The position numbers and the translations under genes were made by a program. From Candidatus Brocadiaceae bacterium (GTDB lineage Bacteria; Planctomycetota; Brocadiia; SM23-32), in the NCBI GenBank assembly GCA_003551785.1, contig PUNP01000680.1, positions 1-6,140 of the forward strand: DNA of 6,140 nt. Direction: 5' to 3'. Positions 164 to 6,140 of this stretch are shown piece by piece (the stretch's first letter is position 1; each line of letters opens with the position of its first letter). The notes below the pieces were generated by a model. The model saw only the letters and a program-made list of their open reading frames with translations. It was not told where the DNA came from and did not search any database.

Positions 164-2056
164 CTATCCGGCCTTTATCGCAATTGTATAGGCCCCCTCG
201 GAATCAGGGGAGAGAACGTGCATAACTATACGTGTGAGTTTTGTCCCCCAAACGCTGCACAGCCGCTTGTCCTTCAAGCAGATATCCTCCAGGTTAATGT
301 CAAACAGACCGGGCGAAAAGTGGACTGAGCCGCACGCAGTGGAACGGCATTCCGGGAGGTCACGCTTCAAAAGTACGAGTCCCCGTCCCGGTTCTTCCTC
401 AACACCGCAAGGGGTAAGAAGCGTCAAAAACAAACTGCCGGGTTTTGAGTATAATTTCCACTCATCGGTCAGTTCAATGCCCTGGGTTCTATCAAACATA
501 ACCGTGCGCCGCAGGCATTGAATTCCGGCCTTTTCAGGATAGGCTCCGGCTATATCAAGCGAAAACCGCACGCCGCTGTCATTGATGTCACACGAAATAT
601 CGCGTGCCTTGAACTCCAATCCCGGTGCTTGAGTGAAACCGTTGACAGTCGGAAGGTTGTGATAGCATGACTGCATCGTCCAGATGTCATATCGGTTTTC
701 ACTAAATGTTTTACGCGTGTATGTCTCCACCCCTGCATCCACCAGAAGCGGGCGCCCTTCGGAGAATACCACGAACTGGCCGATATCGTTGTGGTTGTGG
801 CTTTCACCGTTATGTCCCCCTTTCGCTGCATAAAAAACACCTTTTGTAACGCCCTTAGCACTCCTGGAAGCGACAACCTGGGTCTGCGGAAGCCAGGTAT
901 CTCGCGGAAGTGGCTGGAGCGATTCGGCCCGCAGCAAATTCCCAACCGAGCAAAGGGAACGAAGCCGGCGCATGAGAGAACCTTGTGGGCTTTTTTTGCC
1001 GATCATGGATACACGTGCAAGATATGCCCCGAAGGCACACATATCAGGATCGCCAATGCGACGGCCGTACTCATAAACAAGCGCAGGATCGGGACGACAG
1101 AGCGCCGAGGCATCGGCAAAGTTCACAACCCAGCTTTTGCCTACATGCATTCGGTATATATAACGCCCCATCTCGCCGACAAGCGGTTCATCAAAAGCGT
1201 CAAGCCCGCCCCCCGAGGCCGAATGAAGCAGTTCAAGACAATCGAACAGTGAACCGGCGGCTCTTCCCCAATAATTCGGTCCCTCGTCGCACCCGCCGTC
1301 CTCGGAATATCCCTTGATAAAATTATCCATGCTTTGGATAATTTTACCCACATGTGCGGCCCTGATTGCCGGTTCTTTTTCCACGAGCAGCGCACAAGTC
1401 AGCCAGTTGGAATTGATCCAGGGATTCCAGTTATTGACACCTTTTTTCCCCTTCCGCGAGCGGAAACCCATCCACCAGAAATCGTCTCGTTCAAGACACG
1501 GGAAGAGAATGCGGTTCCTGATCTCGCTACATATACGTGGATAAACGAGGGGCGATACCCGGTCAAGCACCGGCCCAACCAGATACAGGCACCAGGCAAG
1601 TTGAGCACCGGTCTCGGCGGCAAAGAGATCAACGACAGGCTCGGATATGTCGGGAAGTCCCGAACCGGACTTCTGTACACCCAGGTGGGCCGGGTAACAC
1701 CACGAGGATTCCTCACAGATGCTCCATATAGCATTGACTATAGGGTCGAGATAAGCATCATCGCTTTTTGCACAGTAACCCAGTATGAGGTCCGAAAGTA
1801 TGTTCCGTCTCAGGTTATACGGTCTTTGGAAGTTCGAGCGATTGCCTGTCCGTGAGTAATCAAGATAAAGATTGGCGGGAAGTGCCGGCCATTGCTCGGA
1901 TATAGCCTGGTCGCCCGCGCGTATAAGCGCCATGCGGGTTGGTTCATGGAGTTCATCCCAGAAAGAACGATCTCCGGCCACGGGATAGGGCCGCCACTGG
2001 GAGTAAGGAAGCAGTATGTTCGCCAGGGGATAATCTGAAAAAATGTGTTTCAGCAT
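164..2056 (-). CDS. Heparinase II/III-family polysaccharide lyase
   Basis: A 630-residue protein with the two-part layout of the family. An N-terminal alpha/alpha toroid (about 30-380) includes NNWNPWINSNW (208-218) and EDGGCDEGPNYW (Tyr262, the probable catalytic Tyr). A C-terminal beta-sandwich heparinase II/III-like domain (about 390-625) opens with GGHNGESHNHNDIGQF (His420/His422, one being the probable catalytic His) and continues with PLLVDAGVETYT and CYHNLPTVNG (464-473). Relatives cleave uronic-acid-containing polysaccharides by beta-elimination at a glycosidic bond next to the uronate. The N-terminus (ILLPYSQWRPYPV) shows no signal peptide, so a cytoplasmic role on imported or precursor oligosaccharides is likely. 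The start ATG overlaps the stop of the beta-propeller gene as ATGCTGA and has no strong ribosome binding site of its own, which suggests translational coupling. The polymer cannot be named: family members act on heparan, alginate, hyaluronan and others. Confidence 0.92.
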   Translation of the reverse strand: MLKHIFSDYPLANILLPYSQWRPYPVAGDRSFWDELHEPTRMALIRAGDQAISEQWPALPANLYLDYSRTGNRSNFQRPYNLRRNILSDLILGYCAKSDDAYLDPIVNAIWSICEESSWCYPAHLGVQKSGSGLPDISEPVVDLFAAETGAQLAWCLYLVGPVLDRVSPLVYPRICSEIRNRILFPCLERDDFWWMGFRSRKGKKGVNNWNPWINSNWLTCALLVEKEPAIRAAHVGKIIQSMDNFIKGYSEDGGCDEGPNYWGRAAGSLFDCLELLHSASGGGLDAFDEPLVGEMGRYIYRMHVGKSWVVNFADASALCRPDPALVYEYGRRIGDPDMCAFGAYLARVSMIGKKSPQGSLMRRLRSLCSVGNLLRAESLQPLPRDTWLPQTQVVASRSAKGVTKGVFYAAKGGHNGESHNHNDIGQFVVFSEGRPLLVDAGVETYTRKTFSENRYDIWTMQSCYHNLPTVNGFTQAPGLEFKARDISCDINDSGVRFSLDIAGAYPEKAGIQCLRRTVMFDRTQGIELTDEWKLYSKPGSLFLTLLTPCGVEEEPGRGLVLLKRDLPECRSTACGSVHFSPGLFDINLEDICLKDKRLCSVWGTKLTRIVMHVLSPDSEGAYTIAIKAG

Positions 2057-3222
2057 GTTTTTTTATGATATTTTTGGTGAAGGGATTCAAGAAATCCGTC
2101 CGGAATCCGTGCCTTATAAACATGGCTGAGCCCGAAAGGATCAGCGTTGTATATGACATGGCTGTTGTCGGCGGTGAAATAGGCATGAACATGTCCACAG
2201 GCGGGCCCGCCGCCACCGCTGCCGCAGTCCCGAACAAGAGTGGCACACCGCCCGCTCTCAAAGGCTCCCACCACAATTGCAGTAGGACCTGATGAGCCTT
2301 CGGGAGGCGATTCTGCAACAAAATAACGCCCGCACCGGGACGTGGAAGCGTGGTTGAAAAAATGTTCCGGAGCGGGAAAAACCTTAAACTCCTCACCGGG
2401 AGCTGCGTAAATCATATTGCCCTCCCTGTGACGCTGATCATGAACCGGCGTCGTATCAGCGGGGGAAATGTTACCGGACCGGGGCGGTCTGTGGACGGGG
2501 GTGGCAACCCATCCGGTTGTTCCGACCCAGGTGGCATGCCCCGTACTGGGGGCAGTGTAAGGCTCGCCGAGCTCCAGTGAACGTTCATTGCCGCCATCCA
2601 GGTCGATCAGGAAGTGAGTGGCGCCGGAACGCTTACCCGATGTCGGATTGCGCTGTACCAACACTTCGTTCTCGCGGGCGTGATGAATCTGTACATGGCT
2701 GAGCCTGTCAGCCGTGCAGTAGATAACATCACAGGCACCGGAATGCATATCGACCCTGACGAGTTCGTTCTCCGAATCCCTGTTCCTGCGCACGACAGCG
2801 AGATAACGGGAATTCGGGCAGGCCGACCAGAGGTGGACTGCAGGCCCCAGGGGCCAATGTGTTATCATAATTTCCTTTTCAAGAGTGGCTAAATCCACGC
2901 GAATAAGCTCACCATTTCTGCGCAGGTAATACAGTTGACCGCTCCAGGAGCTGGTAGCTATCCAACTGTTGGCTATATCGGAATCGATGGAGGCGATGCG
3001 CAGCCTGTCGATATCCGCCACACACAGTTCGGTCGGGGGATGCCGCGGGTCGGCGTGATGAGCACGAAGATAAGCGATCCTCCGGCCATCCGGCGTTGTA
3101 TAAGGCTGTTCGAAATAAATGTTGATATTATGCATGGCACTGGCGGTGAGGCGGCAGATCGGCGCACCGCTGTGGGGGTCGGGCGGCAGGTCACATGCTT
3201 CAGCTTTCCATTGTATGGCCAT
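2050..3222 (-). CDS. Oligogalacturonate-lyase-like beta-propeller protein (PL22-type fold)
   Basis: A 390-residue soluble protein without signal peptide or membrane segment. It opens with WKAEACDLPPDPHSGAPICR and then HNINIYFEQPYTTPDGRRIAYL (His31 onwards), the opening I associate with oligogalacturonate lyases and related TolB-like propellers, followed by repeated blades (for example QLYYLRRNGELIRVDL and SRYLAVVRR). The C-terminal half has HFFNHASTSRCGRYFV (His291) and GHVHAYFTADNSHVIYNAD (His344 and His346), placed like the metal-binding histidines of PL22 lyases, which cleave unsaturated digalacturonate-type oligosaccharides in the cytoplasm. The Gln I recall three residues before the HxH pair is Ala here. 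The frame extends to an ATG at 3261; the start at 3222 is preferred because family similarity begins there and it has a GGGAG upstream. Its stop lies inside the heparinase-family gene start (7-base overlap), so both are probably co-translated. Whether it acts on polygalacturonate, another uronan, or is non-catalytic is open. Confidence 0.75.
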   Translation of the reverse strand: MAIQWKAEACDLPPDPHSGAPICRLTASAMHNINIYFEQPYTTPDGRRIAYLRAHHADPRHPPTELCVADIDRLRIASIDSDIANSWIATSSWSGQLYYLRRNGELIRVDLATLEKEIMITHWPLGPAVHLWSACPNSRYLAVVRRNRDSENELVRVDMHSGACDVIYCTADRLSHVQIHHARENEVLVQRNPTSGKRSGATHFLIDLDGGNERSLELGEPYTAPSTGHATWVGTTGWVATPVHRPPRSGNISPADTTPVHDQRHREGNMIYAAPGEEFKVFPAPEHFFNHASTSRCGRYFVAESPPEGSSGPTAIVVGAFESGRCATLVRDCGSGGGGPACGHVHAYFTADNSHVIYNADPFGLSHVYKARIPDGFLESLHQKYHKKTC

Positions 3223-3233
3223 AATTGAACGAA

Positions 3234-3238
3234 CTCCC
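3234..3238 (-). promoter_or_regulatory. Probable ribosome binding site of the beta-propeller gene
   Basis: GGGAG on the minus strand, 11 bases before the ATG at 3222-3220, slightly long spacing. The alternative in-frame ATG at 3261 has AAGGG directly abutting it, which is too close to serve. This supports the start at 3222. Confidence 0.45.
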
Positions 3239-3292
3239 ATAGAATAGACGTTAATATTCATCCCTTACGTTACTCATATGCAACACACGTCG

Positions 3293-3523: not shown

Positions 3524-4711
3524 TCAACCACAATTGAAGTATTTATCGTACGCTATCTTAGGGACCAGATGCATCCTCGAAAATAACCAGATGGGATATT
3601 TGAGCACACGCATAAAGTCGTAGCTTGTCGGGTAGTCCCTGAATGTTTTGGGCGGCAGTTTCATTATCTGCTTGAATTCATCGTGGGTCATACCCAGCCT
3701 TTTTATGCAAAGATCGATGATCCGGGGGTCCTCGATATGATATGTTGAGTGGGCCCTCTTCAACCCCTCTTTCCTACTCATCTGGCCCGAACGGACAAGG
3801 GCTGAATCGCTGTTCATATTTAAATCGATATTGAATTTCAGCCGGTGAACATACTTTATCAGACTGTGATAGAGATCATCGAAATAATGTGCGCCGGGAT
3901 AGACCCACCCCAGTTCATCGCGAATAACCTGCTCAGCATCTTCCCGGACATAATCGGTGTAGTACAGAGGGGTAATTGTTCGTATACCCTGACAAATTGT
4001 ATAATACGCCAGTTCTCTCATTCCGAGATTGAATCCCGGATCACAGGGACGCCAGGGCCGCAGAGATACCTTCCCGAGCGATCTCTGCACATTTCTGAGA
4101 TAATCACCGTCGAAAAAGGACCACGACAGAGGCTTTATGCCCTCGGTTCGAAACGATTGGCCTATTATTATATACTTTACTCCCTCCTGGAGAGCCATCT
4201 GGTAAAGTGACGACGCTATCCCGATATCGGTTCCGAGGTTGAGGTCGGGAACAGACGCCTTAAGAAAAGTGATTTTAAGGTCTTTGGCCTCCCTCCAATC
4301 GGAAGTGACGGTCCGAAGATCGACCCCGAGCTCATCGACCGCTCTGACCATATTTTCCCCCGCAACGGGATTGTCAAAGCCATCGTTGAAATGCACAGCC
4401 AGCGGACGCAGCCCCCATTCTTTAACGCATTTCCACAAGAGATGGGTGCTGTCTCTACCTCCGCTGATCCCGACAACGCAGTCGTAACGCCGTTTTTCTG
4501 AAGACTTTCTGATACGGCTGAATTTTTTTTTCAGTATTCTGCGTCCCTTTTCACCTGACGGAAACATTTTAAGCAGTTTATCGTGCAGGCGGCAGAAATT
4601 ACACACCCCTTTATCATCGAAAGATATGCCGGGAACGGTGGAGTCCTGCACGCATCGGCAGCAGACACGATACTCGATATCAAGGGTACGGCCATTAACA
4701 ACGACACTCAT
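3524..4711 (-). CDS. N-acetyl sugar amidotransferase (WbpG/PseA type, PP-loop ATPase)
   Basis: A 395-residue protein of about the family's usual length. In order: a Cys knuckle with C17xxC20 and C37xxC40 (VCCRC ... GVCNFC), probably metal-binding; the ATP pyrophosphatase PP-loop SGGRDS at residues 83-88 with a following LAVHFNDGFDN strand; GVKYIIIGQSFRTEG near 177-191; and the C-terminal family signature SGQMSRKEGLKRA near 308-320 and IMKLPPKTFRDYP near 349-361. Characterised relatives (Pseudomonas WbpG, Campylobacter PseA) use ATP to activate an N-acetyl or carboxyl group on a nucleotide sugar and add ammonia, giving an acetamidino sugar or amide; WbpG gets ammonia from HisH/HisF-type partners. 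None is visible here, and the gene instead overlaps an amidohydrolase gene (ATGA). The segment after WVYPGAHYFDDL (about 269-280) lacks the KHxES-like motif I recall from relatives, so the exact substrate may differ. Cytoplasmic; the role in surface glycan biosynthesis is inferred. Confidence 0.9.
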   Translation of the reverse strand: MSVVVNGRTLDIEYRVCCRCVQDSTVPGISFDDKGVCNFCRLHDKLLKMFPSGEKGRRILKKKFSRIRKSSEKRRYDCVVGISGGRDSTHLLWKCVKEWGLRPLAVHFNDGFDNPVAGENMVRAVDELGVDLRTVTSDWREAKDLKITFLKASVPDLNLGTDIGIASSLYQMALQEGVKYIIIGQSFRTEGIKPLSWSFFDGDYLRNVQRSLGKVSLRPWRPCDPGFNLGMRELAYYTICQGIRTITPLYYTDYVREDAEQVIRDELGWVYPGAHYFDDLYHSLIKYVHRLKFNIDLNMNSDSALVRSGQMSRKEGLKRAHSTYHIEDPRIIDLCIKRLGMTHDEFKQIMKLPPKTFRDYPTSYDFMRVLKYPIWLFSRMHLVPKIAYDKYFNCG

Positions 4712-5562
4712 AACGTGCTCCTCTCAAAATCATAACCTTTTCGACGCACCATATCACCGATCTGTGTCCCCCTGGCGGTTTTTTCAGGTATGTCCAGCTC
4801 ACAGGAGATCAATTCACCGGCAAACTCATTGAATCGCCCCTTTGCTATAATCCCTCCCGGACCGACTGCCAAAGAACAACCAACCATTTTCCTCCCCTCA
4901 TACGGCCCACCGACGATATACCCTACGCTTGTAGTGCTAACAATAATAACATCATAATAATATGCAATATGACGTAACGGTCTGGTCCATTTATCACCAT
5001 AGGGATTGCAGGACTCATCAATATTGTAATCAACCGTCCAGCTCGAGGGAGAAAGTATCAGTTGAGCACCCATACAGGCCAGGGTTTGGCCGATATGAAG
5101 GGATTCAATGTAGTTGTCAGCACAGATATTTAGTCCAATTCGGCCCAGCCCGGTGTCAACGACGCCGAGGGATGATCCTACTTCATAATAAGGGAACTCC
5201 ACTTCAAGCAAGTTGATCTTACTGTATTTCAACACGATTTCTCCGCCCGGATCGATAAGTATAGCCGTATTGAAATGGCGCTGATCGCGTTTCTCCGAGA
5301 GACCCGCACCTATAAACAGTCCGTATTGACGTGCAAGGTCGCACAGCAGATCGCTGTAAACACCCGGTATTTCCCGGGCTTTGCTAAGAGAAGAAGGGTG
5401 GGTCCAGGCGAAATCGATAGTCTCCGGAAGCAAAACCAGATCACACCCATCTTCATACGCCTCCTGAATCAACTGTCCCGCCCTTTCCAGGTTTCTGTCG
5501 GGTTCTCCACCTTCTACCAGCAGTTGCCCCATGCCGAGCTTCATTGTCGATTTAGAACTCAT
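4708..5562 (-). CDS. Nitrilase-superfamily carbon-nitrogen hydrolase (amidase)
   Basis: This is a 284-residue, single-domain cytoplasmic carbon-nitrogen hydrolase, a usual length for the family. The Glu-Lys-Cys triad is visible: Glu47 in LVLLPET, Lys115 in KYSKINL and the nucleophile Cys147 in IGLNICADNY; Glu127 in YYEVGSS fits the second conserved Glu. Enzymes of this fold hydrolyse amides or nitriles through a Cys thioester, releasing ammonia from amides. The frame extends to an ATG at 5589, but that start has no ribosome binding site and overlaps the previous gene. The ATG at 5562 has GGAG five bases upstream and is preferred. Its stop overlaps the start of the sugar amidotransferase gene as ATGA, so the two are probably translationally coupled. 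Inference: it may supply ammonia, or trim an amide, for the amidotransferase reaction. It could also be an unrelated omega-amidase-like or N-carbamoyl amidase; the substrate is not readable from the motifs. Confidence 0.92.
   Translation of the reverse strand: MSSKSTMKLGMGQLLVEGGEPDRNLERAGQLIQEAYEDGCDLVLLPETIDFAWTHPSSLSKAREIPGVYSDLLCDLARQYGLFIGAGLSEKRDQRHFNTAILIDPGGEIVLKYSKINLLEVEFPYYEVGSSLGVVDTGLGRIGLNICADNYIESLHIGQTLACMGAQLILSPSSWTVDYNIDESCNPYGDKWTRPLRHIAYYYDVIIVSTTSVGYIVGGPYEGRKMVGCSLAVGPGGIIAKGRFNEFAGELISCELDIPEKTARGTQIGDMVRRKGYDFERSTL
4718..4722 (-). promoter_or_regulatory. Ribosome binding site of the sugar amidotransferase, inside the amidohydrolase gene
   Basis: AGGAG on the minus strand, six bases before the ATG at 4711-4709. 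It lies in the last codons of the amidohydrolase frame (GAG AGG AGC), so start, stop and ribosome binding site of the two genes are interleaved. This supports coupled translation. Confidence 0.75.
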
Positions 5563-5567
5563 TACCG

Positions 5568-5571
5568 CTCC
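5568..5571 (-). promoter_or_regulatory. Ribosome binding site deciding the amidohydrolase start
   Basis: GGAG on the minus strand, five bases before the ATG at 5562-5560. The upstream in-frame ATG at 5589-5587 is preceded by an A-rich stretch without a Shine-Dalgarno match, so this site argues for the shorter protein. Confidence 0.7.
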
Positions 5572-5579
5572 AAAAGAGA

Positions 5580-6140
5580 TTAGAAACATTTTTTACAGAT
5601 ATCTTCTGCCGCCCGTCCCTTGCGAAGAGCTTTTCTCGTGGACTCAAACCGTTTGCTTTTCCATATATCCATCAGTTTATCATCCCGTATGTTTCCGAAG
5701 GTATAATCGGAAAAAAAATCGTCGAAACATAAAATAACATTACCTTCTGAATCAATAGTAAGCTGAACAGAAGGTAAGATACAGCTTGTTTTCACTTCCT
5801 TCTTTCTCACGGGCACAGCGCCGCCGCGGGTTGAAAGTATGAATCTTTCCATATTTTTTTTTATAATGACGTTATTTCCGCCGGTTATTTCCATTATACG
5901 CCGGTAGTTTTTCCCGTCCGCATCGTTATGGAGGGATACGATAAGCAGCACGGAGTATTTTTGGAGTGTCTGAAACGTCAGTTCATCGAGCAGGTCTCCG
6001 TTTGTATAAACTATGATCTTTGCTTTTTTGAGTTTGCTGCGGGCATATCGCACATGCTCGAGAAAATCATCGTGCATCAGGGGTTCATAATAACCGGTAA
6101 AACAGACCTTACCCGAATAATCAAGCTCCTGCAACTGGTC
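5580..6140 (-). CDS. Radical SAM/SPASM-type protein, C-terminal part (5' end outside window)
   Basis: The reading frame is open to the right edge, so only the last 186 residues are visible; a TTG at 6134-6132 reads as an internal Leu and is not a credible start. The visible part begins in the middle of a radical SAM barrel: VCFTGYYEPLMHDDF matches the strand carrying the family's GEPLL-type motif (here YEPL), followed by IIVYTNGDLL and LLIVSLHNDA strands. The CxxxCxxC cluster that binds the catalytic 4Fe-4S should lie upstream of the window. The C-terminal third looks like a SPASM-type auxiliary cluster domain: Cys120 (SCILPSVQLTIDSEGNV), Cys138 (ILCFDD), then TFGNIRDDKLMDIW, and a terminal CKKC at Cys182/Cys185 of the visible fragment. 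Such enzymes perform radical chemistry on peptides, sugars or other small molecules; the substrate cannot be read here. It is followed after 17 bases by the amidohydrolase gene, suggesting one operon. Confidence 0.85.
   Translation of the reverse strand, partial: DQLQELDYSGKVCFTGYYEPLMHDDFLEHVRYARSKLKKAKIIVYTNGDLLDELTFQTLQKYSVLLIVSLHNDADGKNYRRIMEITGGNNVIIKKNMERFILSTRGGAVPVRKKEVKTSCILPSVQLTIDSEGNVILCFDDFFSDYTFGNIRDDKLMDIWKSKRFESTRKALRKGRAAEDICKKCF

Follow-up and report, generated by a model that had tools for sequence, protein, structure and literature searches.

A nitrilase-fold hydrolase as the probable ammonia-releasing partner of an N-acetyl sugar amidotransferase

Introduction

Which enzyme supplies the ammonia when an N-acetyl sugar amidotransferase (NASAT) is encoded beside a nitrilase-fold hydrolase rather than with HisH and HisF? 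The question is raised by a 6,140 nt stretch of DNA from a Candidatus Brocadiaceae bacterium (contig PUNP01000680.1, hereafter the window), in which a carbon-nitrogen (CN) hydrolase gene of the nitrilase superfamily directly precedes a NASAT gene. Other NASATs, such as P. aeruginosa WbpG and E. coli WbuX, form a system with HisH and AglZ/HisF2 (WbuZ), and that HisH and HisF2 belong with WbuX is supported by a transposon screen of Sphingomonas colony morphology, which is reported to have hit the genes for all three (PMC11340318). We consider it probable that the two genes of the window encode two halves of one amidotransferase, in which the nitrilase hydrolyses a small amide and releases ammonia for the NASAT, replacing HisH/HisF. 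On the best reading the nitrilase is a dedicated ammonia-releasing subunit, and probably a glutaminase.

In the proposed mechanism, the nitrilase, with its Cys-Glu-Lys triad and second glutamate, would release ammonia by hydrolysis of a small amide, for which the glutamine side chain is the likeliest candidate. The PP-loop NASAT would use ATP to activate a sugar's N-acetyl group, then add the ammonia so that an acetamidino group forms. The nitrilase would in this way take over the role that HisH and the HisF-like AglZ/HisF2 have in the sister clade. The NASAT chemistry and the probable conversion of ATP to AMP are drawn from the L. pneumophila enzyme, as set out in parts of its description (PMC10607449), and ammonia release by the nitrilase for the NASAT is suggested by analogy with the NAD synthetase of Thermus. 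Glutamine is the simplest guess for the substrate, and we infer a glutaminase activity, physical contact between the two proteins, an ammonia channel and a sugar acceptor.

Results

Both proteins of the window carry intact motifs

The CN hydrolase belongs to the nitrilase superfamily (PF00795, 107.7 bits against a cut-off of 23.2), and its identity to 118 other members in an alignment is 58-72%. Conservation was assessed in 91 sequences, the window protein and 90 distinct nitrilases of the subfamily. The triad of Glu47, Lys115 and Cys147, described as intact in the first-pass annotation, is indeed present and is kept in 91/91 sequences, and Glu122, also found in the window protein, is kept in 88/91. 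Further motifs (W53 T54 H55, S174 W175 T176, Y188, K191 W192 and Y221 E222) are each invariant in the 91; such family-specific motifs outside the triad hint at a specific substrate or surface.

The NASAT, which had been annotated as a WbpG/PseA-type amidotransferase with an SGGRDS PP-loop, passed the curated cut-off of the WbuX family in NCBIfam (TIGR03573, 216.8 bits against 203.2) and carries both the SGGXDS PP-loop, here SGGRDS at residues 83-88, and the tetracysteine motif. SGGRDS is kept in 124/124 NASAT open reading frames (ORFs) of the clade, a set that includes duplicate loci of one genome. C17, C20, C37 and C40 are invariant in 28 aligned sequences and nearly invariant (≥90%) in 120. 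The best fold match was the L. pneumophila NASAT (8wex), in which, according to sections of the published account, the tetracysteine motif is a Zn site (PMC10607449).

On the minus strand the sequence of 4708-4711 is ATGA, confirming the reported overlap of the two genes, and GAGAGGAG stands shortly 5´ of the NASAT ATG. The ORF of the CN hydrolase spans 4708-5589, with an internal ATG at 5562 that is the start both in the first-pass annotation and in the protein database entry (284 aa). An in-frame ATGA overlap was found in just six of 70 nitrilase-NASAT pairs, and we therefore rejected it as a conserved coupling signal: the adjacency of the two genes is conserved, and the ATGA form of coupling is not general.

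The two genes are neighbours in several phyla

A NASAT profile made from 28 close sequences was scanned on GTDB species genomes, which gave 135 stretches with a relative, the best 80 of which were kept (loci carry L numbers, genomes G numbers). The first-pass annotation had called for a survey of adjacent CN hydrolases versus HisH/HisF, and had regarded pairing limited to one genome as grounds for dropping its proposal. With a nitrilase profile built from 23 sequences, a nitrilase was detected within 300 nt of the NASAT in 73/80 loci. HisH/HisF, searched for separately, was found in 0/80. Of the 73, the nitrilase came first in 70 and the NASAT in three. Three of these adjacent nitrilases are incomplete, two lying at contig ends (L003 and L012) and one being broken (L063). 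In L016 the nitrilase lies ~3.3 kb from the NASAT on the opposite strand, and in six loci there was no nitrilase in the fetched stretch. The 80 loci comprise 70 from Bacteroidota, five from Omnitrophota, two from Verrucomicrobiota, one from Elusimicrobiota and two without a phylum, many of them metagenome bins. The sample is uneven, 41 loci being from Hymenobacter; outside this genus the nitrilase adjoins the NASAT in 35/39. A scan of viral contigs matched 33 stretches, none of them a relative, and viral spread was rejected.

The reverse search, with the nitrilase profile, detected the subfamily in 2/247 Bacteroidota, 31/198 Chitinophagales, 8/237 Omnitrophota and 1/194 Verrucomicrobiota genomes; some of these genomes are also among the 80 loci, such that the two sets are not independent. 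G170 (167 bits), G700 and G866 (245 bits) were left out as another subfamily, and none of these three has a NASAT match. A clade NASAT was present in 42/42 genomes with the nitrilase subfamily, and the pair is adjacent in 39, counting a nitrilase fragment in G357 and a broken nitrilase in G550. In G003 the two genes are on the same strand 3.2 kb apart, with three genes between them, and in G310 and G422 they are on different contigs. When both profiles were applied to the 198 Chitinophagales genomes, 31 had both genes, three had the NASAT only (G002, G004 and G419, the last with a NASAT cut at the contig start), none had the nitrilase only and 164 had neither. Altogether, 87 distinct pairs share a locus, with 74 nitrilase-first and 11 NASAT-first pairs, all 85 adjacent, and two further apart. 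Adjacency that survives a change of gene order and extends over several phyla is usual for interacting subunits.

The broken nitrilase in L063 and in L160/L161 (Omnitrophota) may be an assembly error or a pseudogene. L063 was considered as a nitrilase-NASAT fusion, the C-terminus of its nitrilase being open in frame into the NASAT, but the nitrilase is broken by a frame change and the locus was counted as adjacent.

HisH and HisF accompany other NASATs

The HisF and HisH profile searches each started from one sequence and covered ORFs of ≥100 aa; several loci are short, so distant genes could be missed. Within these bounds, neither gene was found in the ORFs of the 80 nitrilase-clade loci, while HisF and HisH were present in 27 and 25, respectively, of the other 101 loci. 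The upstream side of the window itself ends at the window edge.

The 247 Bacteroidota genomes hold 51 NASATs over the curated cut-off, with a HisF/WbuZ match within 3 kb of at least 43 and within 10 kb of at least 45. Apart from the two nitrilase-linked NASATs, at least 43/49 have HisF within 3 kb; among the matches listed, four of the 49 have none within 10 kb, HisF being 14-23 kb away in three of them and not near in G045 (L174). For the nitrilase-linked NASATs of G008 and G178, the nearest HisF match listed is 280 and 308 kb off, beside a weaker match taken for HisA, that is, in what is taken for a histidine operon. G265 and G310 hold both systems: besides a clade NASAT with its nitrilase, next to it in G265 and remote in G310, each has another NASAT that adjoins HisF and HisH.

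A single exchange of partners would explain the NASAT tree

A tree was built from 78 NASAT sequences picked from the loci in hand, with the root not established. The 30 nitrilase-linked rows, the window included (two with the nitrilase near and not adjacent), group with five partnerless rows in a single clade (support 100/100), whose sister (97/85) consists of 17 HisF-linked rows and one partnerless row. A further 17 HisF-linked rows fall outside. HisF lies >10 kb away in three of the 34 HisF-linked rows and at 5.3 kb in one, and the placement of L179-L181, on very long branches, is unsure. Two close NASAT relatives found after the tree was made, L274 and L275 (355 and 352 bits), are HisF-linked too. 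Since HisF-linked rows stand on both sides of the nitrilase clade, a single exchange of HisH/HisF for the nitrilase explains the pattern. The PP-loop differs between the groups, being SGGRDS in the nitrilase clade, mostly SGG(V/L/I/T)DS in the sister clade and mostly SGGKDS in remote NASATs; Arg at the variable position is also found in L112, where HisF is 2.2 kb away, and in NASATs fused to GlmS.

These GlmS-fused NASATs, five rows that form a clade of their own, are proteins of 604-678 aa with the NASAT-like domain on the C-terminal side (L168, L169, L171, L172 and L032). In the three scanned against Pfam (L168, L172 and L032) the N-terminal domain is a class II glutaminase, and the two scanned against NCBIfam (L168 and L032) are GlmS-like, with WbuX scores of 134-135 bits, below the cut-off. 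NASAT-like domains are thus accompanied by partners of class I, class II and nitrilase type, and the donor module is exchangeable, the GlmS-like glutaminase fused to such domains being a third type.

NASATs were also seen in other large proteins. L173:8521-12540 encodes a 1339-aa protein resembling a nonribosomal peptide synthetase (Condensation, AMP-binding and PCP domains) with a NASAT/QueC-like PP-loop domain, and five Chitinophagales loci (L266, L267, L269, L270 and L272) have NASATs in proteins of ~1183 aa. L266, the one scanned of this set, has glycosyltransferase domains after the NASAT, and HisF and HisH adjoin four of the five, with none found in L267.

Evidence on the role of the nitrilase

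The AlphaFold2 model of the nitrilase (pLDDT 92.7) has a nitrilase fold. A fold search placed amidases at the top, carbamoylases close behind and NadE domains after them; all share one fold, and the structure search is accordingly not decisive as a substrate test. The entry title of the nearest solved relative describes a crystal with glutaramide. NCBIfam scores were 79.6 bits for archaeal nitrilase, 50.9 for AguB and 42 for NadE (NF010588, residues 5-174), the third rank of NF010588 speaking against close homology with the NadE glutaminase domain. In NadE, the Glu next to the catalytic Cys (Glu176 in human, Glu177 in M. tuberculosis) gates the entry of glutamine, as stated in excerpts of PMC6946656. 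The nitrilase does not have the gate Glu and YRE loop of a NadE-type class IV glutaminase.

Several observations weigh against a dedicated glutaminase subunit. The nearest folds are amidases rather than NadE. When it was aligned with seven genomic NadE sequences (the CED motif is kept in five), the nitrilase had Ala148 in place of the gating Glu and no YRE-loop insertion; the Thermus subunit itself is outside this alignment. G002 and G004 (L026, L048) hold a clade NASAT with the usual PP-loop and no subfamily nitrilase (best match 57-58 bits). The second NASAT copies in L049 and L053, and likewise the NASAT of L032, have no adjoining nitrilase, and neither partner is near L174 or, within the stretch read, near the second NASAT of G323, the third genome examined for both systems. 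Natural fusion was sought as proof of contact, but a joined nitrilase and NASAT query gave single NASATs only among the best 120 of 1744 matches (7997 candidates scored). Finally, nitrilase and NASAT distances correlate (r 0.75 in 54 pairs; best of 1000 shuffles 0.10), but in 24 loci the correlation of 0.70 with the NASAT is not far above the 0.53-0.61 obtained with a neighbouring carbamoyltransferase, and as a mere neighbour correlates too, we count this as weak support only. Some of the loci without a nitrilase have other explanations: L061 is cut by a contig end, with the nitrilase in two pieces within the same genome, and the assemblies of L032, L049 and L053 carry the nitrilase elsewhere (L049 and L053 matched to L031 and L029).

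The proposal in the first-pass annotation, that the nitrilase replaces HisH/HisF as ammonia supplier, was partly supported: its main point is backed by the 0/80 loci with HisH/HisF, the near-obligate co-occurrence and the one exchange on the tree, and its chemistry is the less certain part. Its further suggestion of a split analogue of NAD synthetase fits the separate nitrilase and PP-loop pair, as in Thermus; Ala148, the lack of a YRE insertion and the amidase-like folds tell against a close analogy.

The same residues bear on the possibility that the nitrilase is a local ammonia source that acts on an amide other than glutamine, or works without a stable complex or tunnel, and is not a true subunit. 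The NadE Glu beside the Cys is not conserved, the genes are on different contigs in G310 and the ATGA overlap occurs in only 6/70 pairs, all of which would suit such a source. We nevertheless judge it quite unlikely, given that adjacency outlasts changes of gene order in several phyla and that motifs beyond the triad, invariant in 91/91, hint at a specific substrate or surface.

That the nitrilase works for a different enzyme, NAD synthetase for instance, with its place beside the NASAT incidental, might be expected from the description of nitrilase-type glutaminases as the glutaminase class of NAD synthetase (in the parts of PMC3376133 consulted here), but is extremely improbable: the subfamily is in no genome without a clade NASAT (42/42), and 9/9 genomes examined carry other NAD synthetase matches, which disfavours the nitrilase as a missing NadE glutaminase. 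Six of these nine are over the cut-off; the match in G310 is in two genes, and those in G178 and G008 are below the cut-off, the latter in pieces.

NadE motifs were surveyed in 68 loci, a non-random set made up of the nine genomes of interest and the highest- and low-scoring parts of the Chitinophagales list. CED was present in 63/68 and missing in G002, G004, L260 (G345), L265 (G395) and L201, the last being the synthetase half only of a split NadE gene. NadE glutaminase domains without the catalytic Cys motif were thus seen in L199, L200, L260 and L265, two of the four from G002 and G004. The loss in G002 and G004 fits reliance on free ammonia and proves nothing; it was rejected as support, as the motif is likewise lost in G345 and G395, neither of which has a NASAT match.

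Genes around the pair

A gene for a NodU-type O-carbamoyltransferase (cluster 9, of which one member was scanned) was found after or near the NASAT in 28/80 loci (for example L001:6979-8607) and is absent from the window. This arrangement suggests that the sugar at such loci is both amidinated and carbamoylated. It also bears on the idea of a tailoring role for the nitrilase, as a hydrolase that acts in the NASAT's own glycan pathway, where it would cut a sugar amide or carbamoyl group or remove a by-product, with the NASAT using free ammonia. The O-carbamoyltransferase cluster, the stand-alone amidases and close-behind carbamoylases among the nearest folds, and the clade NASATs without a nitrilase in G002 and G004 are in line with this role. 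We regard it as unlikely, because a tailoring hydrolase need not replace HisH/HisF, while the nitrilase occurs on the NASAT clade without HisH/HisF found at its loci, and the pair is kept in Hymenobacter without the carbamoyltransferase cluster in the stretches shown, most neighbours there being unnamed by the search.

In most Hymenobacter loci (for example L020, L030 and L044) the nitrilase-NASAT pair occupies one conserved site, which adjoins a gene for a protein of ~900 aa (cluster 1) that is valyl-tRNA-synthetase-like by eye only, with a gene for a LuxC-like acyl-CoA reductase (cluster 3, of which one member was scanned) near the pair.

The window holds five genes, all on the minus strand, encoding radical SAM/SPASM, CN hydrolase, NASAT, oligogalacturonate-lyase-like and heparinase II/III-like proteins (Table 1). 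A relative of the radical SAM/SPASM protein (48% identity) was found ~0.5 kb from the NASAT at L015:11634-12473, the sole homolog among the ORFs of 181 loci, and the gene is not part of the conserved pair.

Table 1. Positions of the paired genes, their motifs, the neighbouring genes and the GlmS-fused proteins (window coordinates unless a locus is named).
Feature	Coordinates	Strand	Evidence or remark
CN hydrolase (nitrilase superfamily), 284 aa	4708..5562	-	PF00795 107.7 bits; proposed ammonia-releasing subunit
Catalytic Glu47 codon	5422..5424	-	91/91 sequences
Catalytic Lys115 codon	5218..5220	-	91/91 sequences
Second glutamate Glu122 codon	5197..5199	-	88/91 sequences
Nucleophile Cys147 codon	5122..5124	-	91/91 sequences
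ATGA overlap, nitrilase stop/NASAT start	4708..4711	-	Common to 6/70 relatives
N-acetyl sugar amidotransferase (NASAT/WbuX), 395 aa	3524..4711	-	TIGR03573 216.8 bits
PP-loop SGGRDS, residues 83-88	4448..4465	-	124/124 clade NASAT ORFs
Tetracysteine motif C17, C20, C37, C40	4592..4663	-	Alignments of 28 and 120 sequences
Radical SAM/SPASM protein, 5´ end beyond window	5580..6140	-	PF13186 57.8 bits; upstream neighbour
Oligogalacturonate-lyase-like protein (Pectate_lyase22)	2050..3261	-	26.8 bits, below cut-off 30; neighbour only
Heparinase II/III-like protein	164..2056	-	PF07940 35.8 bits; neighbour only
GlmS-fused NASAT-like proteins	L168:8108-10138, L169:8910-10928, L171:8112-10148, L172:8365-10179, L032:6674-8692		

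Discussion

The NASAT of the window resembles that of the HisH, AglZ/HisF2 and WbuX system in its TIGR03573 match, PP-loop, tetracysteine motif and 8wex fold; the difference is the nitrilase-fold enzyme, with no HisH/HisF found at the loci. The nearest parallel to the pair is the two-subunit NAD synthetase of Thermus thermophilus (TTC1538/TTC1539), whose subunits, according to portions of the report, co-purify and use glutamine (PMC3376133). There too a separate nitrilase-fold subunit and a PP-loop synthetase are encoded in one operon, but the acceptor enzyme differs, being here a sugar amidotransferase. Unlike the fused glutamine-dependent (type F) NAD synthetase, the present proteins are not fused, with no fusion among the matches listed, and the nitrilase is 14% identical to NadE in the fold alignment. 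Also among the closest known proteins is PH0642 of P. horikoshii (6ypa, 1j31, 3ivz), by its entry titles a stand-alone amidase or nitrilase. The GlmS-NASAT fusions, as is proposed for the pair, couple a NASAT-like PP-loop domain to a glutaminase other than HisH; they differ in having a class II (Ntn) glutaminase, one chain and a NASAT part under the WbuX cut-off.

In a limited search of open-licence papers we found no two-subunit enzyme of a nitrilase and a sugar amidotransferase, though one may be in print elsewhere. What is new is the combination of a sugar amidotransferase family already known and a donor enzyme fold that is described, in the literature found, for NAD synthetase; the nitrilase-fold glutaminase class is described as that of NAD synthetase in the passages available to us (PMC3376133). 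We give about even chances to a more far-reaching account, in which a nitrilase-fold glutaminase, recruited apart from that of NAD synthetase, replaced HisH/HisF once in the ancestor of the clade, forming a two-subunit, ammonia-channelling sugar amidotransferase that thereafter spread, as one unit, among Bacteroidota, Omnitrophota, Verrucomicrobiota and Elusimicrobiota.

Glutaminase modules come in a small number of unrelated classes, and if the nitrilase fold had been put to this use independently a second time, it would be a fold open to repeated recruitment as a source of ammonia. Such a use would also assign a function to a subfamily that so far has just the name "carbon-nitrogen hydrolase", and would caution against taking nitrilases in glycan operons as degradative. 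The HisF-linked, GlmS-fused and nitrilase-linked relatives are a natural experiment in the change of donor by an acceptor enzyme. If the proposed role of the nitrilase is true, the NASAT superfamily, with its GlmS-like fusions, would represent one acceptor enzyme using three unrelated glutaminase classes.

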